64,000 nucleotides of DNA, taken from assembly GCA_002261195.1 (NCBI GenBank), contig MVBO01000019.1, positions 1-64,000 on the forward strand. Direction: 5' to 3'. Shown here piece after piece: positions 3,760 to 23,002 of this stretch. The DNA comes from Bifiguratus adelaidae (taxonomy: Eukaryota; Mucoromycota; Endogonomycetes; Endogonales). The translations under genes and the position numbers were made by a program. Under the pieces are notes generated by a model. It made no database searches and was not told the origin of the DNA. It saw only the letters and a program-made list of their open reading frames with translations. The stretch's first letter is position 1; each line of letters starts with the position of its first letter.

Positions 3760-4990
3760 ATGGCGACGTACAAATACGAGACGGTGCAGGTGACCAGTCC
3801 GGCAGAAGGAGTCCTACATGTACAACTGAACAGACCCAAGAAGTTGAACAGTTTGAACGGACAGTAAGTGGAACGAATGACATTTCTGGGAGCGTTGACC
3901 GGGCACGGGCTTACAAACACGTCCATCAGGCTTTGGGAAGACATTCATGATTGCTTTGAAAAGATTGCGCAAGACCAGGATGTCCGTGCTGTAGTGTTAT
4001 CTGGTAATGGGAAAGTTTTTACAGCTGGATTGGATTGTGAGTAAGCGGGACGATGGTATTATGTCTATGTCTGATCCATCATGTTACAGTATCCGACAGT
4101 ATCCTTGCGAAGCAACCTGAAGACGAAGATCCGGCTAGGCGCTCGTATCATCTACGCCCGCATATAATGGTAATCCTTGGATATAATTGATTGCGAAACG
4201 AGCTTACGGTCATTTAGCACCTTCAACAATGCTTTACCGTCATAGAGAAATGCCATAAGCCCGTGATCGCAGCAATTCATAATGCTTGTATCGGAGGTGG
4301 AGTGGATCTCATCACGGCGTGCGACATACGATATTGCGACAAATCAGCCTTTTTTTGCGTGAAGGAAGTTGACGTTGGTTTAGCGGCAGATGTCGGTAGG
4401 TATACGTACACCCTCGATTTGACCGATCAGTGCTGACAGTTTGACAGGCACACTGCAACGGTTACCCAAAGTCATTGGAAATCAAAGTTTTGTTCGTGAG
4501 ATATGTTACACGGGTAGAAAGTACGTTCGTCTGGTAGAGCTGCAGATACCGGCAGGACTGATTCATATGTTTCACTAGTGTACCTGCCCAGGAGGCCCTC
4601 GAAATGGGTATCGTCTCCAAAGTATTGGATACCAAGGAAGAGCTGCTGGGTAAGCAATACAACTACCTATCGCTTGTTCCTGATGCATTGTCATCTTTGA
4701 TGCAGCCTCAGCCATTGCCACCGCCAAGACGATTGCCAGTAAATCACCAGTAGCCGTATTCGGAACAAAGTAAGCGATTGTGGATTGGCTTATTGTGTAC
4801 AACATGGTCCAGTAGATTTGACGTTGCAATCTCCACCAGGCACCTCATTAATTTCTCGCGAGATCACTCAGTAGATGAGGGTCTGGCCTACACAGCCACT
4901 TGGAACATGGCGATGCTCAACAGCGAAGATGTTGTAAAGAGTGCGCAAGCTTTCTTCACCAAGAAGCAAGCCATCTACTCAAAATTATGA
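3760..4990 (+). CDS. Delta(3,5)-delta(2,4)-dienoyl-CoA isomerase, peroxisomal
   Basis: Eight exons: 3760-3863, 3930-4036, 4090-4169, 4218-4395, 4448-4520, 4579-4649, 4706-4769, 4840-4990; 275 aa. It is a crotonase-fold protein of the ECH1 branch: IGGGVDLITACDIRYC forms the oxyanion/active-site helix, and VKEVDVGLAADVG carries the acidic residues that distinguish the isomerase from plain enoyl-CoA hydratase. It moves double bonds in dienoyl-CoAs so that odd-position unsaturated fatty acids can enter beta-oxidation. The protein ends in SKL, a canonical type 1 peroxisomal targeting signal, and lacks a mitochondrial presequence, so a peroxisomal site is well supported. Splice phases agree at all seven introns. 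Confidence 0.93.
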
Positions 4991-5138
4991 AAATTAAAAA
5001 AAAGGAACTTCTGGGGAATCCAGGGACAATGGGACACACTGAAAAAGGATTAGTTTGTCCGATATAAATTCCATGCATTTCACGTTTGCATATTTCATTG
5101 CATCTATTGCACTCTCTCTTGTCACTCCTTTTGCCATA

Positions 5139-6469
5139 ATGCCATCATTGAGAGTAGCTGGTCTTCTAGCATTTACCGCAGCTGTTGCTCAGGCATTTAA
5201 GTTGCCAGCGCAATTTCCCACTACCGCGCCAAACTCAACGCAGATTCCTCAAACCTTTCAAACGACCGGCTACGATGTTGCTACACAATGCAAGCCTTAT
5301 ACCTCATCACTTGTATTTAACAAGGGCGATTACCCTATTCCGTGGACTACAGCTACACAAGGCACTAATACATCAGCAGAGTGGCAGGCGCTGAGAGCCT
5401 CCATCGATTGGAACGCGGTACCCAAGATTGCTCCGCGAAAGTTGGACGCATTAGGAGCACTGGTCCTGACCGGTTATGATATCGTCAATGATCCTGATTG
5501 CTGGTGGTCAGCCAGTGGCTGCAGCAAACCCAAGGCTGCCAATATACCAGCAGACATCACCCAATGCCCCGAACCAGGTGAGCGTTTTATTGATCTGAAA
5601 CGCAAACACGAAATTTGTGGTTTCCTGGATTTCGACTCTAACATTTTCTGCTTTTAGAAACCTGGGGGCTCACCTTCGACGATGGACCCAATTGCTCTCA
5701 CAATGCCTTTTATGATTACCTGCAGCAACACAACCTCAAGGCAACCATGTTTTATGTTGGTTCGAACGTCATGGGTTGGCCTTATGGTGCTGTTCGCGGA
5801 CTTCGCGACGGTCATCACCTGGCTGTCCATACTTGGTCCCATCAACTGATGACTACTTTGACGAACGATGAGGTCTTGGCCGAGCTCTATTACACAATGA
5901 AGGCCATCAAATACGTGACTGGTGTAACACCTCTTCACTGGCGTCCAGTAAGTGGCCGAATGATATGTTTCATGTGGGCTGATCTTTCAATTATTTAGCC
6001 ACAAGGCGATGTAGATGATCGTGTGCGCGCGATTGCCGCGCAACTGAACCTGACTTGTATCCTATGGAACCAAGATACAGATGACTGGAAATCGGCAACT
6101 ATCGGCACTCAGGCCGTTCAACAAAATTACAACAACTATATCACGATGGGACAGAATGGTACTTACGCGAATATTGGCAATATTGTGCTCAGTCATGAAA
6201 TCAACAACACAACTATGTCTCTGGCCGTTCAAAACTTACCGGCGATTCAGAAAGCCTACAAGCATGTGTTGGATGTGGCCACTTGCATGAACATCACCAA
6301 ACCTTACATGGAGACCGATGTGACCATTCAAGCGTTTGGAAGTGGCTCGGCTGTCCCTAGAGAAGCTTTCCCAACCGGAACCAAAGGCTCATCCTCGGCA
6401 GCTTCCATCACTGAACCGATCAAGATGCTTACCGTCGCACTTGTTGCATTTGCCGTAGCTCTTTTGTAG
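5139..6469 (+). CDS. GPI-anchored chitin deacetylase (CE4)
   Basis: Exons 5139-5577, 5658-5947, 5999-6469; 399 aa. MPSLRVAGLLAFTAAVAQA is a signal peptide. The polysaccharide deacetylase (NodB/CE4) domain has all five motifs: TFDDGP (catalytic base and metal Asp), HTWSH (metal histidines), RPPQGD (formed across intron 2), DTDDW and VLSHE. The Ser/Thr-rich tail GTKGSSSAAS followed by a hydrophobic end (MLTVALVAFAVALL) is a GPI-anchor signal. It converts cell-wall chitin to chitosan on the outer face of the plasma membrane, a major wall polymer of Mucoromycota. Several NxT/NxS sites are present. An in-frame ATG 66 bp upstream could add residues, but the chosen start gives a clean signal peptide. 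Confidence 0.94.
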
Positions 6470-9468: not shown

Positions 9469-12400
9469 TTAAAACTCTTCATTTTTACTTCTGTAACTTT
9501 CTAGGCTACCTCCTCCCCTGCTGCTCAACAAGCTGGAAACATCGGCTTTAATGTCTCGTGGTGTCGACTTTTTGATATCCGATGCGCCATTCGCCGAACC
9601 CCACGCACCACCACCAGGCGTACAAATTATCACACGATCACCTTTGTTGCAGACAGCCGTGTTCTTGCCGCCGAGGTTCAATACTTGGACGTCACCATTG
9701 TCGCGTTTTCGCACCCAAAGATTGAGGCCGTTAGCTCCTTCTTCGCCTCCGTTCAGTCCATATGGTCGATACACACGGCGCTCAGATAGAATAGACACAG
9801 CAATGTTGTCCTCATAAAATTCAATATCTCGAACGACACCGTTGCCCCCTGGATGTAAACCCTTTCCGCCAGAACCCTCGCGAATGGAAAATTCACGCAG
9901 CAGCACTGGGTATCGTCGTTCCAAGATCTCTGGATCGGTGATTCGGGTGTTTGTCATGTGGGTATGAACACCGCTCTGACCTTCCCACTCTGGACCGGCC
10001 CCACTGCCTCCAGCGATAGTCTCGTAGTATCCCCAGCCTTCGACCACTTCGCCTGTCTCCTCATTACGACCACCAAGTCCAAAAGTCAGATTGTTGCAAC
10101 ATCCTTGACTGGCCGCGCAAGCATTGAAAGCTTTGAGCACGACATCAACAACGCGCTGGGAGGTTAAGACATTGCCCCCAACTACTGCCGATGTATCCGA
10201 AGGTGATAAGAGTGATCTTTCCGGAATCTTGATAGCGATCGGTTCCAGACATCCAGCGTTTAATGGTATCTCGGTGGGTATCATACTCCGCAAACAGTAA
10301 ATGATGGCACTGTGACACACCGAAGGTGGCGCGTTGCAATTGCCATAGGTTTCCGGACCTGTGCCGTCAAAATCAAAGGTAGCGGTACCTTTCTCAGCGT
10401 CAATGTTGATTTCTAAGGATATCGGTGTTCCATCGTCCATATAATCAACCGCCTTAAGTGTAGTACCTTGTATGCGCTTCGAAACATCTTTCAGAAGCTC
10501 CCTCACAGCCACCTCTGCATTTTTGCGAATATGCATCATATACGCTTGCACCACATCAAGACCGTATTCTTCAATTAATCCTTTGACGAGGGTAATACCC
10601 TTGTGATTGGCGGCCACTTGAGCCTTGAGGTCAGAAACATTGTCCCGAAGGCAACGTGTGCCTGAACAGCCCGGATATTGCGCAGGATCTTCCAGCAAGC
10701 ACCTGCGGAGTCCTTCATCGTCGAACTTGCCGGCAGATACGAGTTTAAAAGACTTGATGGCGGCCCCTTCTTGGTACAGCTGAGAGACAACGATGCAAGG
10801 TTAGTACAGGACGGAATTCGAGAGCAAGCTCGCATACCTCTCGAGAATGCGGCGGCATAGAACCGGGCAAAATGCCACCAATATCCGCATGATGACCGCG
10901 AGAAGCGACAAAGAACACAATCTTGCCGTTATCAAACACCGGTGTGATGATGGTGATATCTGAGCAAGTCATGAGTTTGAAAACTTGGGCGCTACCGCAC
11001 GCAAACCTACCTGGCAGATGAGACCCTCCGGCAGCGGGATGATTGGTAAGAATCACGTCGCCTTCAACCAGTTTGTCCTTGTAATAACTCATTTGCCACT
11101 TTACTGCATGGCCAAGACTACCAAGATGGACCGGGATATGCGGGGCTAAATCAGACATTGGGTCAGATGTGGATAGTTGCAACCTCATCACTTACCATTG
11201 GCCACCAAACCTCCGTCCGGACCGAACAGAGCACAGGAAAAGTCAAGTCTTTCCTTGATGTTGGTGCTAATGGCTGTCTTTTGCAATGTTCTACCCATTT
11301 GTTCGGCAATGCTCATGAAACGATGAGAGAAAATGGCAAGTTGGATAGGATCCAATTTGGTAGTGACCTTTTGTCGGACTTCGTCACCAAGCGCGATGAC
11401 GATATGCTGAGATGTGATGGTGGCGTTGCAACCTGGCTCAATAACGACCGTAGCAGTAGCATCAATAATAACCGCTGGACCGGCAACTTGTTCACCAACT
11501 CTGAGATCCGATAATTGATACACAGGCACCTTGTCGTTTCGACCTTCCTCAAAATAGATGGATGTTGTAGTGCAGGCGATTTTGGGATCCACGGCTTCGC
11601 GTTTGTTGTCCTTCTTAAGTCTTTCTAGCTCCTGCCAAACAGATTCACTTTCGCGGTGATTGGCTTTGCCTATACCACGAATGCGGACATCATCTGCAAT
11701 AATTTCTCGATCTGGTAGAGTGAACCCGAATTCTTGCTTGTGGTTCTTAACAAAGGCTTGCTCGAAGTCACCATCCTCAGGTTCCATGGTCATTAACGAG
11801 CAATCTGTGCCATTATATCGCAGATTGAGGTAGGTTTCGCAAGTCGTCTGATTTTCTGAGAATCCTTGACTCATCAGTTCTTGCACACATTGCTTGGACA
11901 GCTCCTTGATGCGCTCTTTGAGTTTTGGAACGGATGACTTTGACAGGGTCTCGGCCGATGGTTCTTGTACTTCGTGCACAACATCAGCAAGAGAGAGCCC
12001 GTAGGCTGAAAGAATGGAACTGTGTCGATGAATCAAGATAGTACGTATTCCCAATGTCCGTGCAATCGCACAGGCTAAGACTTGGTCAGCGAGGCATTTT
12101 CCGCAAACGCAGCCTACCATGTTGACCACCAGCGCCACCAAAGCAGGCAAGGACGTGATTGCTGGTATCGTGACCTTTTGCTTCGGTCAAGGCACGAATC
12201 GGACGACACATGGTCTCGTTTGCTACCTTGATGAACCCGTAAGCGATCTCATCAACGCTCATGTCCTTTGACTCGGTTCCTTTGTCATTCTTCATAAAGG
12301 TCGTAATCTCGTTGCGAAGTTCTTCAAACTTCCTCCTGGATGCTTCAATATCCAAGGGCTCCTTCTCGCTCTCACCAAAAATTTTGGGAAAAAAGTCGGG

Positions 12401-14123
12401 TATAAGCCTGCCAAGCACAAGATTCGCATCCGAGACGGTCAGCGGTCCCCCTTTGCGATAACACGCTGGACCAGGGTGTGCGCCCGCACTCTGCAATAGA
12501 TTAGACCCGACCCGTCAGCGTTCGAGATGCACGTCAATCGCATGCCTTACCTCCGGACCGACGACAAACATGCCGTTACGGAAAAAGAGTCTTGATCCAC
12601 CACCGGCAGCGACTGTATTGATGTCGAGCTGAGGTGCTTGGATCGTCACGCCGGCTGTAGTAGTCTCAAAGACATGCTCGTAATGACCCGCAAAGCGAGA
12701 GACATCTGTACTCGTCCCACCCATATCAAAGCCAATGATGGGTGTCTTCTCCTTTTCATCAAAGCTTGTCAGTGCGTAACCTGGGGGCGCTTAGCAAATG
12801 GATCCGAGCTTAACGTCAGTCCAATACTCACCTACTACACCGGCAGCCGGTCCAGAGAGGATGGCGCGGAAGCCGGAAAAGTTGCGGACAGGTACAAGAC
12901 CACCATCGCTCTGCATGAACTGTAGCGAGGTATTCGACCTTTCCTTTCGCTTATCCAGACTTGGTAACGTGTCATTGTCGATATAATCAAAATGTCCGTC
13001 AAATCCATCGGTGAAGCCGTCCACGTATTTACGGATGCAGGGTGTCAAGTACGCGTCTGCTGAGGCCGATGTGCCCCGAGGCACAATTTTGATCATGGGC
13101 ATGATCTGCGAACTCAGGGAAACATGTGTAAATCCAATCTTTTCCGCCTCTTTGCCAATGAGAGTTTCGTGGTCTGCCAAAGCGTACGGCATAAGATTCA
13201 TGGTGATGCACCACTGCCACATCACTCACCAGGAAATGTATACGAGTGCATCAAACAAATGGCGATACTCCTCAATCTATCGTCGTATAATTGCTGCAAT
13301 TGCTCGCGTACCTTGTTCATGTCTTCAGACGTTAGCATTCCATAGTTCCACTGAACACAGGTATTCCTACCTGGTCGCTTAATGATCTTGAGCCATTCCC
13401 CGCTGACTCCCTTGACAATGTCATCACCCTTTTCCTTGGGTTCATCAACCACTCCATCCGGAGCGTTGGTATAGCCCAGCAATGTCACTCTGCCAACAGC
13501 CTATCATTAGAGAATTCTCTCAATTCTCTCTGGTCAGACATCCTCACCTCTCATCCACTTCAATAACTCGCTTGTAGAGCACCTCGGGCTTCTTGATGGC
13601 CAAATCAAAAATCTTGGGTCTCGATTGATTGCCTGCAACCTGGTCAACATGACGGGTAGGGACGGGCGGTCGCTGTCCTTACCGATAACGAGCAGGTCCT
13701 ATGTACAACGCGTTAGCTATGGAACCTATATCCCAGCCTTGGCCTCTCACCTTGAATCCCTTGGACGTGAGCAAGGCACAAGCTTCCCCTTGTCGTTCCA
13801 AAAGCGCGTTCGTAGCAACGGTCGTTCCCATGCGAATGGAGGCTAACCAAGCGTAAGCGCTCGCTCGTCACTCACTCCCTTAGCTACCTACCTATATCCC
13901 GAGTAGGCACAGGCTCTTCTCGAGGGTATCGTTTACCCGTAGCCAACTCCAGTATCCGCCGTATCCCTTCTCGAGGAGCATCGGGATAGTTTTCGGGGTC
14001 AACCGATAAGAGTTTGATAATGTGCTCTTTTGTTCCATTAGGATTTTCTGCAGTCTTCTCCACCCGTTCTATCCCGATGCAGTCGGTGAATGTTCCACCT
14101 CTATCGATACAGATATCTAACAT
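9469..14123 (-). CDS. ATP-dependent 5-oxoprolinase
   Basis: Twelve exons (minus): 14123-13892, 13842-13751, 13698-13683, 13632-13548, 13489-13230, 13173-12832, 12780-12551, 12490-12118, 12074-11196, 11145-11011, 10959-10838, 10779-9469; 1358 aa, a little longer than yeast Oxp1 (1286). HyuA-type N-terminal half: DRGGTFTD near the start and [12 protein letters not shown] mid-protein (acetate/sugar-kinase ATPase motifs). HyuB-type C-terminal half: [24 protein letters not shown] and FDFDGTGP. It hydrolyses 5-oxo-L-proline to glutamate using ATP, in the cytosolic gamma-glutamyl/glutathione cycle. Exon 3 is only 16 nt. The 5' end faces the HMG-box block, and a decayed fragment of the same gene lies at 20110-20505, making this gene the presumed left flank of a mating-type locus. 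Confidence 0.93.
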
Positions 14124-17100
14124 GGCCGAAGGAATGGACAGCCAAAGTCACATCCAACGTCTTAGAATAGGTATGACAGCACGTGATTAGTCTCTTTATG
14201 GAAGGAGCAGGCCTTTGGATGGTACTCGTGTGGTCTTTGTGTCGTGATTTGCGTTGTGTTATGAAAATGAAACGGCTGCCCTTAGCTTCTTACATGTGCA
14301 TATCAATACAACGGAATAAATAATTCACTAGAGGCTCTCAAGGCAATGACAATCAGGGATATCGAGTTCAACGTTTGACACATCGATTGTCTATGGCAAA
14401 ATAGATCATGGGGAGTTCCTCATATCAGAACTTACATTATAATGTATAATGTATGCGATTGCGGAAGGGGTATGTACACTATCGTTACGCATCGCAAGCT
14501 GCGACTCTCTTCGCCAAAGATGCCAAAGACGATGATAAATGATGTGACGGAATGATAGTTTGGACGCATCCGGACAATGAATGCTTGGTGATCTTCTTGA
14601 TGGTGTTTCGCTTGCGATTTGGGGTATGTTTTGAACGTGATGTGAGAATTGTTGAAGTTGACGCAAAGTTGTACAATCATGCATTGTTAACTCCACGTAT
14701 GATAGTCGCATTAGTAATCCTATGGAGCATTCGAAAAAACTTAAGAATTTATCCAACAGCTCAAATATTCGTAAACAGGAATATTTGCTCCCAGGTTGCC
14801 GGGATCGCGTCGCTTCGGAGCTTCATGATGTAGTGTCGGTGCTGACAAATTGAGGCCAAAGTCATCAGCGTCAGTGTCCCTGCAATGGTAATGCGTGGCA
14901 ACGACTTGGCGCTCCTCCATTGAGACAAGTTATTAATCAAGGCAGAACATGCACACTAATCTCAAGGCCCCCGAGCACGATTGAACCAGCTTAAGGGAAT
15001 CTTCTAGATTGTTGAAGATTCTCCTCAAGTGCCTCAGTAGACGCCTCCATATAGATGGAGTCCATTTCGCCGGTTCTGCCGAGACCCTCGCTAAACCGAG
15101 GAGAAGATGTCGAGGAGGATTCCAGATCAAACTTCACGAGCTTTCGGGTGCTACTGAAGGTTTCGCATCTAAATTCCTGAGACCAACAATCCAGACTCAT
15201 ACGAAGTCAGCAAATGTAGAGAAAGGCATTCACCAAGTGAAGTTGACCAATTTCGTTGTCGCTCCAAAGTGTTTGAACATTGGGACAACGTGATTGAACT
15301 TGGGGTTCCTCTCCTCATCCAAAACTTGGTTTCCCTCTTCGCAAATTGCGCAGAAATTCGTAAAAGTGTAATAACTCATTCGGATGAATTGCTTTGTCGG
15401 AGCGGAATCCCAGCCTTTGGATAGTCGCTGACGTTCACATGGGGCAGGGCATAGCCTTGAATTGACCGAAGCAGCGAGTAAATGACTCATTGAGACATTG
15501 CAACGATTACTAGGCGGTTTTTCCTTCCACAAGACCAGCTGACAAGGTGCTTGGCAGCTTAGGCCAATCCGATCGGCCAACCATGATGGAAAGGCGCTCA
15601 TTTAGGCACTCCATCGCGGGAGTCGAAAATTTGCTCTTATGAAGTGAGATTCTGTTTGCTGTGGGGTCATTTTTCTTCAGCATTCCTGAGTTGACGACTG
15701 GGACAAGCTAGTAGAGGCTCCTTCCGAAGGCAATGGTATTGTTTCTAAACTTATCCCAATCCTCAATGTCTTAAACCTGGTAAGCGTTGGGCACACCCTC
15801 TTGAATTCAATACAAATTTCTGCTTCCTTGTGTTTCCGTGTCGGTTCGTTATATATAGCAACAGTCCGTTCAAGTTAATGAACAGGACTTTGCGCGTGAT
15901 GCACTGCCAATCGTCAAATTGAAGTCTGAGCGACCTTTAAGCACTGTGTACACTATCTGCCTCGACCCCATCTATTCTAGAAGTATCTCCAGTGAACTGT
16001 GCCAATGCGTGTGTCAACGGTCAAGTAACGGAAGCATGCGTTCCTTGAGCACTCCAATATACATAGTACATGGTACTTGAGCAAGGTACCAACCGTCCAA
16101 AAGTTTCAGACTTGAGATATAATGTCAGGTCCAGAAGACCTGAGGAATCGACTGGTTTGAGAGTCGATCATTGTAAGCGATCAACGTGAGACGAGACTCG
16201 CAAACGGCACAATATCGATTGTTCCTGGATTATCTTGCGCACTGGGTATACCATTCAAAGCCGACGCATCAATGGACGCTGAGCGCAACACCAAGTCAAA
16301 AACCCGTAAGGTGCAAGAAGCATGCATATATTGGACAGAGTTAAATTCGAGGCTATTCCGGCGACCAATGTTCTCTATTGTCTTTCGCATATGCCTTCTA
16401 GATCCTATGCTTGAACGCAAGTATGGCAGACACAAGCCCGACTGGTACCGCATTAGTGCTACACTGCAAAAGCAAGTCAATGACCATAAATAGATTACAA
16501 GCGAAAGAAGCATAATCCATTCCAATGTTACATTCTATCCCATTTATTGGCTGATTGGTGACAAAAGCGTGAAGATACACACAATCGCTATGAGCTTGAG
16601 CTTTACCTCTGTCGCTATTACGGGAATATATTAAGGTGATGACCTAACTCTGGTATCGCTCGGACTGGAAAACGACAAACACGACTTGAAGCAATGAAAC
16701 CTCGGCAGGAAGGCAGTGGTTATGATACAGGCCGCAATTATAACTAGTCATAATCATTGCTGCCCTGAGGTTCCCTAAAGGGATTCTTGGAAAGGCCAGG
16801 ACGGCAAGGAGGGGTGGCTAATAAGTGAAACAACCAAAGCAGACACCAGAATCGTACATTCACATTTAAATAACAATACCACCATAGAAAGGGTACTGAA
16901 CTGGAGGATTGGTAAGCTGGTCCAACTCACTTTCCTTTGTGCAGACCAGTGGTGCCTACCGGGATCAGAGAAGATGACCGGCAAATTGCGCTGCTCACTG
17001 TAGCAAGGCGATATAGCGATCATCAAGTTGCGTTAATGTCGTTTCTGTTCATGGTCGTTTGTAGACGTTTCCTTCACGTTTGTATTGCGGGAAGCGTTTT

Positions 17101-17528
17101 TGAGCAGTCGCTGACAAAGACACCGACAAACTTGAGCCGTTGAATAGAAGGTGTTGCGAATGTAAATATTAGTCTTGACAGGCAGAATATAGGTGACAGA
17201 CCGGACTTTCATGGACTGAGCGTTCACGTATGTTCGTCAATAACTGCTCAGAGGTTCCAGGAAGGCACCAAAACGTCTGTTCAGAGCTTGAAAAGCAAGA
17301 AGCCTGAATCGAAGGTTTACATGAGAAAACTCACAGTATGACCTCGGTTTAACCATCCGTCTTATAGCCATGCAGTCCGTGGATGTTCCGTCTGCCAGTT
17401 CAGATATTTTACATGGGAATGACAGGCACGATACCAGTTTAAGTGTGCAGATTGGGTTTTTTGCGCCCAATTCCGCCTAGTAAAAAGAAGCGAGGACATT
17501 CTTATTGTATTCCTCTTTTTCTTGTTTC
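14124..17528. other. 3.4-kb gene-poor stretch left of HMG1
   Basis: Nothing convincing is encoded here. Open frames are short (up to ~125 codons), mostly lack an ATG, and show no known domain. The best candidates are two minus-strand frames (15601-15230 and 15200-14991) and an ATG-started plus-strand frame of 73 codons (16272-16493); none could be joined into a gene by plausible splicing. This spacing is exceptional in a window where genes otherwise lie less than 1.2 kb apart. It would be idiomorph-specific sequence if the mating-locus reading is right. Confidence 0.6.
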
Positions 17529-19124
17529 ATGTCTTCCCTGCCAGCAAAACGACGCTTGATGCCCAAGGAGGAGACATTCTTGGACGCAGACGTCTCAATG
17601 AAAGGCTTAACGGTGGCCAGGGACTCGCAACAGGCTCCTCGATTCTATCTTCCAGGCACCAATGTCTTTGTCCCTGACCAGTGTTTTGTCCAAGCAGCCA
17701 GTTCTGACTACGTTTTCCTACGTCCAGATACTCGAGTCTCCTCCATAGAGCTCCTTGGCAGGACACAGAGCCTGCTAGACGATATGTCTGGCTCTTCTGA
17801 AACGAACGGGCTGGTCCCTTTGTTCGCAACGAAAGACGAGGATGTAAAGAAGCGTGTCCGCAACCGAAGAAGATCCAATCGCCAAGTACCAAGACCAAGG
17901 AATGCATTCATACTTTACCGTACGGAAATGCAGCGAAAACTGAAACGCGTGCTATCGAGTCTGTCCAACCCGGAGATATCCATCATCGTTGGTCGTATGT
18001 GGAAGATTGCTGCGGAGGACACCCGTCATCATTATGCAAGAATGGCCGAAGAGGAAGCGAAGCATCACGCTGCTCAATATCCGGATTACAGATACACTCC
18101 GTTGAAAAGAGTGCAGAGAGTATCGGCTGACTTCGAGGATGATGTCCTGGTACATACCCGCAATAGCAGGAACCGACACAAGCATGAACAAGCGCGAAGA
18201 CCAGCAGCCCTTCTGGCAAGCTCATCTATCACTTCAATTGAGACAGAGATCACCAATTCGCTAAATCCAAAGTTGCAGCTATCTGCAACGTCTGATTATG
18301 AAATGGGAAGTTCTTATATCGATCTCGCCTCGATGAACGACATTCTTCGCAAACAATTTACCTGGGGTCAAGAACGTGCAAGGAAATTCACCATGAAGGA
18401 GGTTTGCAATGTTATCCTTCGTTCACTCAATGACGACCTGTCGCGAACATTAGACCAAGCTTGCCCTATCAATCTTTTCGATGCCCTATACGAGGCCGCG
18501 CCTTTGATTGACCGTCAAGCGGGTGGGAAAGATGCAGACTGCTTGCTCGAATTATGTGATTTGGGCGAGTTCAAGCTCGGGCAGTCCGGATTATCAACCG
18601 AGCAATCACTATTCAACGACCTTGAAATTGACTCTTTGGGTCAAAGTCTGGATGCACCTACGGAATCATTGGGTGATATACTGTCACTTTTCAGTGGCCA
18701 TAACAAGACAGGACAAAGCAATGACGAAAAAACATACATTGAAAGCGGTGACCAAGGTTCTGGCTTCACATCCTATGGAAGCACCCCAAACTTCGCTGCA
18801 GGAGCTTTTTTTGAGGATGTGGCATGGAATGACAGGGCACGAACCGAAAACGTCGAAGACTTGAGTGTCGGCGAGAACACTTTTGCTATTTCATGCTCTT
18901 CAGAGAGCTTGCAAAGCGTGTCATCCTTCGACTATAATATCGACTCTCCTCTTTCTTCGTTATCGACGGAAGTAATAACGCCATTCGCCGAGATAGATAC
19001 GGAAACAGCCAGAATTGACACATTATACGGGCATACGGTTGATCAAGAACATCTTCAACACATCGCGCCACAATGGAAAGGCATCTACGAGCTTCCACAA
19101 GCGATATTCGATTTCTCATTCTAG
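17529..19124 (+). CDS. HMG-box transcription factor (MATA type), 'HMG1'
   Basis: A single open frame of 531 aa with no intron needed. The HMG box spans about residues 121-190: RPRNAFILYR, then LSNPEISIIVGRMWK and YPDYRY, the pattern of the MATA_HMG class that includes ascomycete MAT1-2-1 and Mucoromycota SexM/SexP. The preceding KKRVRNRRRSNR is a basic nuclear-localisation-like stretch. The C-terminal 300 residues are acidic and Ser-rich without a known domain, possibly an activation region. The ATG at 17529 is the first in the frame. It faces away from 5-oxoprolinase, and its 3' end is 107 bp from the broken X copy. The fold call is strong; the mating role is inference from box class and locus structure. 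Confidence 0.85.
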   Translation: MSSLPAKRRLMPKEETFLDADVSMKGLTVARDSQQAPRFYLPGTNVFVPDQCFVQAASSDYVFLRPDTRVSSIELLGRTQSLLDDMSGSSETNGLVPLFATKDEDVKKRVRNRRRSNRQVPRPRNAFILYRTEMQRKLKRVLSSLSNPEISIIVGRMWKIAAEDTRHHYARMAEEEAKHHAAQYPDYRYTPLKRVQRVSADFEDDVLVHTRNSRNRHKHEQARRPAALLASSSITSIETEITNSLNPKLQLSATSDYEMGSSYIDLASMNDILRKQFTWGQERARKFTMKEVCNVILRSLNDDLSRTLDQACPINLFDALYEAAPLIDRQAGGKDADCLLELCDLGEFKLGQSGLSTEQSLFNDLEIDSLGQSLDAPTESLGDILSLFSGHNKTGQSNDEKTYIESGDQGSGFTSYGSTPNFAAGAFFEDVAWNDRARTENVEDLSVGENTFAISCSSESLQSVSSFDYNIDSPLSSLSTEVITPFAEIDTETARIDTLYGHTVDQEHLQHIAPQWKGIYELPQAIFDFSF

Positions 19125-19231
19125 GCTTAAATTATGTAGATTTTGAAATACAAATGCCGTTGTTTTTTTTTGATGTTTCGTTGCTAATATAGCTGATAAA
19201 TTGTATACGAAAAAGCCGCTGGCTTCTGAAG

Positions 19232-19976
19232 TTAGAGGGGAAGCGCGGGAATGATATAAGCGGGCGTTGTGGGCATAGATTCACTCGACCCCAACAAAGA
19301 AAAAGAACAACGAGGATTCAGTCGTCATGACAAGGACATGTCTTTGTACGACGTGAAATAAGGGATGATCTTAGGCGCGTAGGTGGGCTAGGATCGCGTT
19401 TCGTTTGGCCAGGATGGCGCCTGCGCGTGAGACGCGACTATCAAAGGTAGTCTTGGAGGTATGGGATATCTGATCGACACACTCGTCGCGCAAAAAGGGC
19501 AGGATAAATTGAGTAATATTGATAGGGGGTGGAGTATTGCACGTTGTTCGGCGTTGTTCTGCTGTCGGCGTAGAAATAGATGTGGTCGAATCGGTCGTTG
19601 ATCCTGTTTCCTCCTCGGATGTTCATAGATGGCTGGCCTGTGAGACGTTACATCTCGACGATCCTGGGCCATCCGCTCACTTGCCTCGTCGAGTGCGACT
19701 CTCTACTCGCAGCTTTTATGGGAAGACGAGACGGGCCAATCTATCATCTAGCCCTTAGATATCACGTCTCAATCAACGCACCACATGTATTCAGCTGACC
19801 TCTGTCTGGAAGGCCGGAAACCACAGAGAAAGTCCCAGGGCTTGAGACGTGCGCGCGGGTGGTGTGTGATCGACTACGCCCAGAAACCCTGAATACGCGA
19901 TGTTGCACAGGAGCCACGGGGGAACTGATGGATAGATAACGCGGGAGAGGGGCGTGGAATGAGCGTTTGAATAAAC
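19232..19976 (-). pseudogene. Broken copy of gene X and its promoter
   Basis: This stretch aligns base for base, at roughly 90% by eye, with gene X and its upstream region (21906-23000). Similarity starts exactly at the X stop codon (TTA on the plus strand at 19232) and runs through the X start (ATG near 19672) into ~300 bp of promoter. Two internal pieces of X are missing, about 175 bp (X 22046-22221) and about 185 bp. The second gap is joined at the 5-bp microhomology TGGCT shared by both sides in X. Small indels also shift the frame between the start and the conserved middle part, so no intact product remains. It is in the same orientation as X, next to the 3' end of HMG1. Confidence 0.88.
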
Positions 19977-20109
19977 CTTATTTTCGTGAAATGTGCTTCC
20001 GATGTATCTTGGAAGCATTCAGAGGGCGACGAAGCCCTCCGTTATGTTCAGGTGCCCGGAAAATTCATTTCGACAGCATTTAAACATCGACATTTCTGCA
20101 TGACTCAAC

Positions 20110-20505
20110 GGAACGTTGATCCGCACCGCTGCTATGAACCGTATTAACGTCCAGCTGAGGCGCCTGTGTCGTCACCGCCGCTGTAGTAGTCTCAAGCAGG
20201 TGCTTGGCACGACTTGCAAAGGGAGAGACATCGGTACTCGCCCCATCATGTCATAGCCAATGGCGGGAGTCTGTTCTTTCTTGTCAAAGCTTGTCAGCGC
20301 GTAACCTGAGCATGGGCAGCGAACAGCGGCTTACCACAACGCTTTCTCGCGCCCATCTACCACATCAGCAGCCGGTGCATACAGGATAGTGCGTAAGCCG
20401 GGAAAGTTACAAACAGGTATAAGTCCAGCATTGCCCCATAGATATTCCAGACACGTATTCACTTCTCACTGCGCTTATCGGTATTCGACGACGTCTCGTA
20501 CCGAA
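20110..20505 (-). pseudogene. Decayed fragment of 5-oxoprolinase
   Basis: The plus strand here is collinear with plus-strand positions ~12588-12985 of the intact 5-oxoprolinase gene. Shared landmarks include CAGCTGAGG, GCTGTAGTAGTCTCAA, CAAAGCTTGTCAG and GCGCTTATC, and the alignment crosses an intron of the intact gene. Divergence is roughly 25-30% by eye with several indels, much older than the X duplication. The intron's donor GT is lost, and the frame is broken. Only the middle of the gene is recognisable; the part coding for the enzyme's C-terminal half is absent and the N-terminal part is not detectable to the right. Orientation matches the intact gene. Confidence 0.85.
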
Positions 20506-21344
20506 AAAGAAACGCGCCCTAAGCTTATTACCGGTAACTATTTTCGCGGACGCACACGCTTATCGAGCAGCTCTAACCGGATGGTGTGTATTTTTAAAAA
20601 TGAAGCATCCAACACATCCAGGATACACCTAAAGTTGTACTTGTAGTAAAGTTGGCTCGTGATCCTACCAAAGTTCCAAGGTGTATGTGTAATCTGCAGA
20701 CCCAGTTGACGGAAGGAAGCCTCGACCTTCTGCTTTTTTGACCAGTGATGAATCCTCTCTTACGAGGAAGGTTGATGCTTTATCGTAAACATTGAGTTCC
20801 CTCCCATTAGACTGCTTTCACTAAACACCGGAAGGCATTCCCGCATTTCAGCAGGACGCCATCACCAAAAAAGGAAGCAGCAGGTGGGTGACATGAGAAA
20901 TTACATCTTACATTCTGACAACAATCTCGCATAGATGCCATGGCTAGGCCGAGTATCTGCGGTGGCAAAGCTCGCAAGTCCTACATGTACGCGACTCTTT
21001 TAATAGTTTACAGTGATGCCAGTCCCTCAACTGCTTCTCGCTCGATTGGAAAATCGTTCCGAGTTTAAAATTCTAGATCGACTTTTTTTTTCTTTTTTGG
21101 AGCTGCGTGACAGCCCACACTCCAAGGAGCGCTATGTCAAGTCAATGAATGATGTTTCATCGTCGTCAAAAATCTATGCGTAACTGATGCCAGATGGTGT
21201 CTGCATGTGTACGTCGTGCTATCGTTGAACAAGAATGCACATACCGAAAGCGACAATTCACAAGCATTCGTTGATCTGATATTTTTTGGTATACGCTTTG
21301 TTGTACCGTCGTGATTCGAAAGCGATGGTTCTAGAATGCAAGGA
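20506..21344. other. Unassigned stretch between 5-oxoprolinase relic and HMG2
   Basis: About 840 bp with no supportable gene. It contains a T-rich tract near 21080-21100 and short open frames without motifs. In the fused-idiomorph model it should hold the missing 5' third of the 5-oxoprolinase relic or idiomorph-specific DNA, but I could not align it to 12985-14123. Confidence 0.5.
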
Positions 21345-21797
21345 TTAGCATTTCTCGATGCATTGCAGGTCGGCCGTCGCATTCACCTGTTTTGGGGTAT
21401 GTTCACTGGCCGCGGTGTCTTGTTGCCTAGACATCTTGTGATTGTATCCCGGATATTTGACTCGATGGTGGACACTTTGTATGTCGGCTAATTGATGGTA
21501 TGCTGCAACGACGTCTCTAGACTCCGTCTTCCACCACTGGCTGATGATTATAGAGCACTCCTTGGCCGTAAGACGATCGAGATGATGTTGCATTTCCTTC
21601 ATCTTGTGCTTCCGATATAGTATGAACGCGTTGAGGGGACGAGTAACCCTTCCTTTCCTTCCGTTGCCCCAAACCATTTCCTCATTCTCTGACCGAACAC
21701 CGATCTTTAGGCACGTTTCCGAGCCGTGTTTCACATGAGTGAACTCGTCGGTAGCTCTTAGCAATCCCTGCCGAGATGACACTGTCTTGTGGTTCAT
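21345..21797 (-). CDS. Small HMG-box protein (MATA type), 'HMG2'
   Basis: A 150-aa protein from a single exon. The HMG box covers about residues 52-121: RPLNAFILYRKHK, then LTAKECSIIISQWWK and KYPGYNH, aligning with the HMG1 box at the same landmarks (NAFILYR, EISIIVGRMWK, YPDY) but clearly diverged. It has only short tails. The chosen ATG at 21797 is the first in frame; upstream codons in the frame lack ATG. It is transcribed opposite to HMG1. Its promoter must lie in the 108 bp between it and the X stop codon, or within X. Opposite orientation of two different HMG alleles is known for SexM and SexP of Mucorales. An additional 5' exon cannot be excluded. Confidence 0.78.
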   Translation of the reverse strand: MNHKTVSSRQGLLRATDEFTHVKHGSETCLKIGVRSENEEMVWGNGRKGRVTRPLNAFILYRKHKMKEMQHHLDRLTAKECSIIISQWWKTESRDVVAAYHQLADIQSVHHRVKYPGYNHKMSRQQDTAASEHTPKQVNATADLQCIEKC

Positions 21798-21905
21798 GCT
21801 ACGCCGGTAAAAAGGATGGTCAACGTGAGACTCAAATGCGAACAAAGGACAAAAGAGGGCACAAAAAGGGGTTCCAAATTTGCTCGTCAAAGGATTACTG
21901 GAAAT

Positions 21906-22706
21906 TTACAGGGGAAGCGCGGGAATGATATAAGTAGGCGTCGAGGGCGAAGATTCACTCGACCCCGACGAAGAAAAGGACATTGAGGAACCAGTCCTCA
22001 TAAGTTGGACATGTCTAGTACGACGTGAAATAGAGGAAGATCTTGGTGGGGGAATGATCATGGGAGGTGGAGGCGCACATCGGTGCCTTGGGCGTTGTGG
22101 CGTCGAATTGCGGTCACTGCTCAGGCTGGTGCGTGAGGCCGAATAGGCGGAGCCGTCAACGGAGCTGGAGGGAGTCGGCGTTGCTTGAGAGTTGCTGCGA
22201 GACAGCGTGGAGAAGTGGGAAGCGCGTCGGTGGGCAAGAATCGAGTCTCGTTTGGCCAGGATGGCGCCTGCGTGTGACGCGCGACTGTCAAAGGTCGTCT
22301 TTGATGTGTGGGATATCTGGTCGACACACTCGTCGCGCAAAAAGGGCAGGATAAATTGAGTAATATTGATAGGGGGTGGAGTATTGCACGTTGTTCGGCG
22401 TTGTTCTGCTGTCTGCGTAGAAATAGATGTGGCCGAGTCGGTCGTTGATCCTGTTTCCTCCTCCGGTTCCTCATAGATGGCTATAATGTCCTCCAGGTAG
22501 CCAGGAATACCATCATGGCCGACAAGAATACTCGACACCTCTTCAATAAGCTGGTTCAATTGTTGATCAAGATCCGGGCTCCATCCTTTTCTCCTCGCGT
22601 CGGGTTCCTGACCATGGGCGGGTATATCCGACAGACTTTGAGCTGAGAGCCGAAACCGACTTTTGGCTGGCCTGTGAGGCGGTACATCTCGAATATCCTT
22701 GGCCAT
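21906..22706 (-). CDS. Unknown Ser-rich protein X (266 aa)
   Basis: A single-exon frame of 266 aa with no recognised domain. Residues ~50-75 are acidic and helical (QLNQLIEEVSSIL, GYLEDIIAIYEEPEEE). The middle contains NITQFILPFLRDECVDQISH, and the C-terminal 100 residues are Ser/Pro/Arg-rich and probably disordered. A TATA-like CATAAAAGC lies ~45 bp before the ATG. Its upstream region and much of its coding sequence are duplicated at 19232-19976 as a broken copy. It lies immediately upstream of HMG2 on the same strand. I interpret it as the right flanking gene of a mating-type locus; its own function is unknown. Coding status rests on the long open frame and conservation of the frame in the middle of the broken copy. 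Confidence 0.65.
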   Translation of the reverse strand: MAKDIRDVPPHRPAKSRFRLSAQSLSDIPAHGQEPDARRKGWSPDLDQQLNQLIEEVSSILVGHDGIPGYLEDIIAIYEEPEEETGSTTDSATSISTQTAEQRRTTCNTPPPINITQFILPFLRDECVDQISHTSKTTFDSRASHAGAILAKRDSILAHRRASHFSTLSRSNSQATPTPSSSVDGSAYSASRTSLSSDRNSTPQRPRHRCAPPPPMIIPPPRSSSISRRTRHVQLMRTGSSMSFSSSGSSESSPSTPTYIIPALPL

Positions 22707-23002
22707 CCGCTCAATTGCCTCGTTGAGTGCGACTCTCTACTCGCAGCTTTTATGGGGAAGACGAGACGGACCAATCTATCATCTGGCCCTTAGATATCAC
22801 ATCTTGATCAAGGCACCACATGTGTTCAGCTGACCTCTGGACAGCCGGAAACCACAGTGAAAGTCCCAGGCTTAAGACGTGCGCGCGGGTGGCGTGTGAT
22901 CGACTACGTCCAGAAACCCTGAATGCGCGACGTTGCACAAGGGCCACGGGGGATCTGATGGATGGATAACGGGGGGTGGAATGGGCGTTTATATAAGCAT
23001 CG
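22707..23002. repeat. Duplicated upstream region of X (partner at ~19673-19976)
   Basis: These ~295 bp 5' of gene X match 19673-19976 in the same orientation at about 90%, with scattered substitutions and small indels. Similarity fades near GCGTTTATATAAGC (X side) and GCGTTTGAATAAAC (copy side). Because non-coding DNA is conserved as well as coding, the duplication is a block of genomic DNA rather than a retrocopy. Confidence 0.85.

Follow-up and report, generated by a model that had tools for sequence, protein, structure and literature searches.

Sex in the Mucoromycota is thought to depend on HMG genes that lie at a site with recurring neighbours, and to our knowledge the sexuality of the group of soil fungi studied here is little known. 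The locus described in this work carries two HMG genes among repeated flanks and raises the question of whether two mating-type idiomorphs have been joined end to end, as a preliminary description of this DNA proposed. Two fused idiomorphs, with MATA-class HMG proteins acting as opposite sex regulators, would be the best reading of the locus, one that we hold tentatively and with rather less than even confidence. The window that we analysed is the whole 64-kb stretch C101:1-64000. It comes from a draft assembly that totals 18.6 Mb over 286 contigs, and the locus within the window is made up of the following features, from left to right.

9469..14123, minus strand: 5-oxoprolinase, intact, of the ATP-dependent OXP type, with several short introns (Pfam over the scanned exons)
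14124..17528, no strand: spacer of 3.4 kb from 5-oxoprolinase to HMG1 (DNA and Pfam searches)
17529..19124, plus strand: HMG1, single exon, 531 amino acids, with a box at 17889-18092 read as MATA-class (Pfam HMG_box, profile)
19229..19974, minus strand: X', a decayed copy of X including the promoter (self-comparison, alignment)
20116..20479, minus strand: 5OP', 364 bases from the interior of 5-oxoprolinase, frame-shifted by indels (alignment to 12592-12955)
21345..21797, minus strand: HMG2, short, 150 amino acids from the first in-frame Met, with a box at 21441-21644 read as MATA-class (Pfam, profile)
21906..22706, minus strand: X, an intact frame of 266 amino acids, serine- and proline-rich (open reading frame, Pfam, database search)
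22321..22413, no strand: a 93-base tract in X, identical to 19474-19566 in X' (X/X' alignment)

This anatomy is confirmed: Pfam, open reading frames and self-comparison place all six elements, 5-oxoprolinase (-), HMG1 (+), X' (-), 5OP' (-), HMG2 (-) and X (-), where they had been described, in that order and on those strands. The locus has a glycosyltransferase, weakly of the trehalose-synthase type, as its left neighbour and ZNF598/Hel2 and Mon2 as its right neighbours. The exons of 5-oxoprolinase, whose start codon, N-terminus and introns were assigned by eye, match the Pfam families Hydantoinase_A, Hydant_A_C and Hydantoinase_B (E 1.7e-137 for the last), and an exon compared with 699 plasmid records gave just matches below 60% identity. 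The spacer has no DNA match in the genome besides itself, and its three examined open reading frames gave no Pfam match. X matches no Pfam family, and a search of 5.8 billion proteins, in which 2120 candidates were scored, returned no relative besides X itself, as expected of a fast-evolving gene; a peptide-pattern scan of a viral collection found no relative either, and the codon-usage score of the reverse frame is marginally above that of the X frame.

What makes the locus a candidate for fusion is the arrangement of its repeats. Self-comparison of the window (E<=1e-4, after removal of copies whose starts lie no more than 20 bases apart) listed four repeat pairs, three of them X/X' blocks (82-92% identity) and one a 5-oxoprolinase block (72%); all four are direct and all lie within the locus, which bears out the claim that both flanks are repeated once, in the same orientation and in the proposed order. 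This is the order expected from one misaligned crossover, although the second 5-oxoprolinase amounts to merely 364 bases. A check for duplicated DNA in 248 kb of the genome (the window and 19 further loci, E<=1e-6) added two paralogous gene pairs, a 126-base piece from upstream of another HMG gene, and a fragment of the HMG1 5' end that lies in two parts. The fusion would have started from two versions of the locus, A with 5-oxoprolinase, HMG1 (plus strand) and X, and B with 5-oxoprolinase, HMG2 (minus strand) and X. One misaligned crossover, just past X on A and within 5-oxoprolinase on B, would give the present order, X' and 5OP' would be leftovers at the joint that then decayed, and the 5' part of 5OP' would have been lost later. 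HMG1 and HMG2 would be opposite sex-determining transcription factors, both present in one haploid nucleus. We infer the allelic past, the crossover, the later loss from 5OP' and the mating role alike.

The 5-oxoprolinase fragment speaks against this account. A second copy of the gene does exist, as first described, but it is just an internal, frame-shifted piece that matches 12592-12955 of the intact gene with 72% identity over its best block, and DNA alignment searches to the right of 5OP' did not detect the rest of the 5' part (1.2 kb). Differences from the intact gene number 21/103, 16/100 and 36/104 at codon positions 1, 2 and 3, so that positions 1 and 2 together (37/203) differ at about half the intron rate. 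Such counts agree with one copy having stayed under constraint after the split while the other was free, and with a fragment dead from its origin rather than a long-lived functional allele; they are thus no proof of a former working allele. In the intron of 5OP', the limits of which were set by eye, 19 of 48 sites differ, against 36 of 315 noncoding sites of X (p 6e-6), and overall the divergence of 5OP' is roughly three times that of X'. A single event can cover both copies only with prior allelic divergence or with gene conversion of X'. The shortness of 5OP' and its divergence therefore count against fusion, and the contrast in divergence between 5OP' and X' speaks for a local rearrangement with no mating role, in which the HMG genes would be lineage-specific MATA-class regulators, X would have been duplicated in tandem, a 5-oxoprolinase fragment would have been copied during break repair and HMG2 would have been gained or moved separately. 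We take this history to be a serious possibility that falls short of being probable. It needs several events that by chance left everything ordered and oriented as a single crossover would, and it leaves unexplained why X homology ends at a stop codon beside two different, opposed HMG genes that pair on a tree.

The other repeated flank is better preserved. The broken X of the preliminary description is indeed a decayed copy, the correction being that X' has lost two stretches of roughly 180 bases each from its interior; it retains the promoter and the end with the stop codon. Homology begins at the stop codon of X, and with the promoter included 656 of 731 aligned sites are identical (about 90%). 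The 93-base tract is the longest identical run in these sites (p 0.0017 in 20000 shuffles of the mismatches) and suggests gene conversion or recombination between X and X'. Differences are more frequent in the core-proximal part (38/240) than in the distal part (37/491; p 0.001), a split that was picked post hoc and whose distal part holds the 93-base tract, so that the two signals overlap; within that limit, higher divergence beside the HMG core would fit the edge of an idiomorph. The decay of both inner copies also bears on the thought that the sample was mixed or diploid and the assembler joined its two haplotypes end to end. The draft state of the assembly, with 286 contigs and a total of 18.6 Mb where Umbelopsis genomes are put at 22-30 Mb (PMC10386755), lends this some colour, but joined haplotypes should hold both X and 5-oxoprolinase intact twice, and we consider such an artefact very improbable.

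The DNA between the flanks behaves differently from the flanks themselves. Core A (14127-19228) and core B (20480-21902) align with a best local score of 56, where the 5OP' fragment scores 284; the maximum in 40 shuffles was 48, and since the score is slightly above this some similarity of the cores is possible. HMG2 has no match in core A and a weak one at about 19993-20106 (E 0.046), while the best match of HMG1 in 19975-21345 has E 1.4. HMG1 (plus) and HMG2 (minus) are opposed and adjacent on one chromosome. In Mucoromycotina the sexM and sexP types also stand in opposed orientation. The HMG genes of the present locus could instead be mating-type genes descended from one HMG gene that was duplicated in tandem and then diverged, without any allelic fusion, as their pairing on the tree and the doubling of both flanks might suggest; that the HMG units are inverted and hardly align at the DNA level, when X with its promoter has kept 90% identity, makes this improbable, and the same contrast favours the fusion of idiomorphs, which appears a better fit than simple tandem duplication.

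Both proteins carry an HMG box. Pfam HMG_box matches HMG1 with E 8.8e-17 and HMG2 with E 9.4e-8, and in a profile of 21 sequences (HMG1, its database relatives and HMG2) nearly the full motif is aligned in both boxes, whose mutual identity is 35%. From this profile and from trees built without SexM and SexP we read both boxes as MATA-class, in line with what had been proposed, and in comparisons with solved structures both fell best with the sequence-specific SRY/SOX class. HMG1 and HMG2 pair in the trees with support of 87/97 (14 rows) and 90/88 (20 rows), although the very long branch of HMG2 makes the pairing suggestive only and insecure. Five boxes in the genome were read as MATA-class, partial boxes split by introns being left unclassed; the other three, on C112, C275 and C79, cluster together (98/98 in the 14-row tree). 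Codon-usage scores weakly favour the HMG1 frame and favour HMG2 only from its first Met. Peptide-pattern scans, with six patterns in all, likewise gave no HMG1 relative in viral or prokaryote collections. The database search with HMG2 gave no relative among its 20 scored candidates, a blank that carries little weight because common HMG proteins were missed as well.

The best named relative of HMG1 among the best 8000 candidates is BGW37DRAFT_548946 of Umbelopsis sp. PMI_123 (64% over 128 amino acids), which makes the Umbelopsidales the probable source of the window. This protein appears to be a chimera of an out-of-frame piece of HMG1 and a piece of another gene; its remainder, residues 118-263, is 81% identical to a gene on C100 of the present genome. 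A patchwork of gene ends was also seen within 1 kb at about 4261-5180 of the piece C159:9500-15222. It comprises the HMG1 5' end and upstream DNA in two pieces of 204 and 31 bases (95-97%), a stretch of 126 bases that matches, with 96% identity, DNA lying upstream of the C275 MATA-class frame, and a putative aldehyde dehydrogenase start that was recognised by eye and has no Pfam match. On C79, a short single-exon HMG gene of the MATA class, with a frame of 285 amino acids, lies at 4668-5522 on the plus strand of C79:146900-156800, with a gene for a SacI-domain protein on one side and a WD40 gene on the other, and by its size it is a candidate for a further sex gene.

The rest of the genome was searched for a sex locus of the classical kind. 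In two Umbelopsis genomes the sex locus is reported as agl/tptA/sexP/DUF2405 (PMC7928374), and rnhA is reported to be excluded from the sex locus in two Umbelopsidales genomes (PMC7928374). Among best candidates, HMG gave 24 matches on 15 contigs (E<=10), TPT 15 matches at eight places on seven contigs, alginate lyase (PF05426) five matches on C85, C250 and C198, and the OB_NTP_bind helicase domain ten matches. We take OB_NTP_bind to be a domain of the rnhA helicase. None of the 24 HMG matches is close to any of the eight TPT places or on the three alginate-lyase contigs; C218 is the sole contig common to HMG and TPT matches, which lie about 215 kb apart on it. Around the best TPT match, ten open reading frames of C240 include no HMG or alginate-lyase gene, and among 20 of the longer open reading frames around the genes on C112, C275 and C79 there was no match to TPT, alginate lyase or helicase. 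PF09435, which was meant as DUF2405 and is named DUF2015 in the Pfam set used, gave zero matches in a search without a positive control. Helicase matches do occur about 9 kb from two HMG genes, one on C218, where a Sec7 gene intervenes, and one on C230. Both genes carry several boxes, were read as not MATA-class and were set aside, although one of the trees (20 rows) put the C230 gene next to the other MATA genes, with weak support and a very long branch. A separate TptA-HMG-RnhA locus, which would have spoken against the original proposal, was thus not found among the best candidates scored in this assembly; since the assembly may be incomplete and best candidates only were scored, the absence of a classical locus is weak evidence.

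Taken together, the proposal of an end-to-end fusion stands in part. The order of the repeats, the MATA-class boxes and the cores that scarcely align favour it, and for it we also count the tree pairing and opposed strands of HMG1 and HMG2, the out-of-frame HMG1 remnant in the Umbelopsis sp. PMI_123 protein, the absence of an X relative among the scored candidates, as for a fast-evolving gene, and the lack of an HMG match near the best TPT or alginate-lyase candidates. The divergence of 5OP', the gene fragments elsewhere, the three further MATA-class genes and the published Umbelopsis loci with other flanks weigh against it. The fragments on C159 and in Umbelopsis sp. PMI_123, and the report of Umbelopsis sex genes beside tptA (PMC7928374), are likewise what a local rearrangement would lead one to expect. 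If idiomorph fusion is the true history, a sex locus can move and both types can be united by fusion as in ascomycetes, and the locus would offer a directly testable marker of the breeding system for soil fungi of the Mucoromycota.

The proposed fused locus may also be able to lose one of its types. X' and X are direct repeats, with copy lengths of 0.75 and 1.1 kb, that flank HMG2, and because they share the 93-base identical tract HMG2 could be looped out: recombination in the tract would delete HMG2 and leave HMG1-only, self-sterile nuclei. By analogy, a fused two-HMG mating locus at a new place, with X' and X still recombining, would represent unidirectional switching outside the ascomycetes, a scenario that we regard as unlikely. 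Its model is Chromocrea spinulosa, where 115-bp direct repeats surround MAT1-2-1 as X' and X with their 93-base tract surround HMG2 (PMC5608430); loop-out of MAT1-2-1, giving MAT1-1-only nuclei, has been demonstrated there (PMC5608430), whereas at HMG2 loop-out is a possibility.

Other systems resemble the locus in different respects. The sex locus of Mucoromycotina (tptA, sexM or sexP, rnhA) is described as a divergent core with sharp edges and conserved flanks (PMC5982828), and it shares with the present locus its HMG genes, putative sex regulators here, and the opposition of divergent core to conserved flanks. Its flanks are tptA and rnhA; here they are 5-oxoprolinase and X, with two HMG genes together, and C101 gave no TPT, OB_NTP_bind or alginate-lyase match among best candidates, so the flanks differ from the TptA/RnhA pair as originally noted. 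A literature search at title and abstract level showed, among the papers listed, no mating-type locus with oxoprolinase and HMG, and to that extent the 5-oxoprolinase/X flanks would be new for an HMG mating locus. Rhizopus microsporus var. azygosporus likewise has two HMG types, sexM and sexP, in one strain, but two sex loci are reported there (PMC5982828) and here the interval is one and contiguous. A further parallel is offered by many homothallic ascomycetes, Sclerotinia and Cochliobolus among them, in which two idiomorphs fused at one locus are ascribed to crossing over (PMC3574095); those fungi join an alpha-domain gene to an HMG gene (PMC2999568), whereas the present locus, in a probable mucoromycote, would join two HMG genes with decayed copies of both flanks between them.
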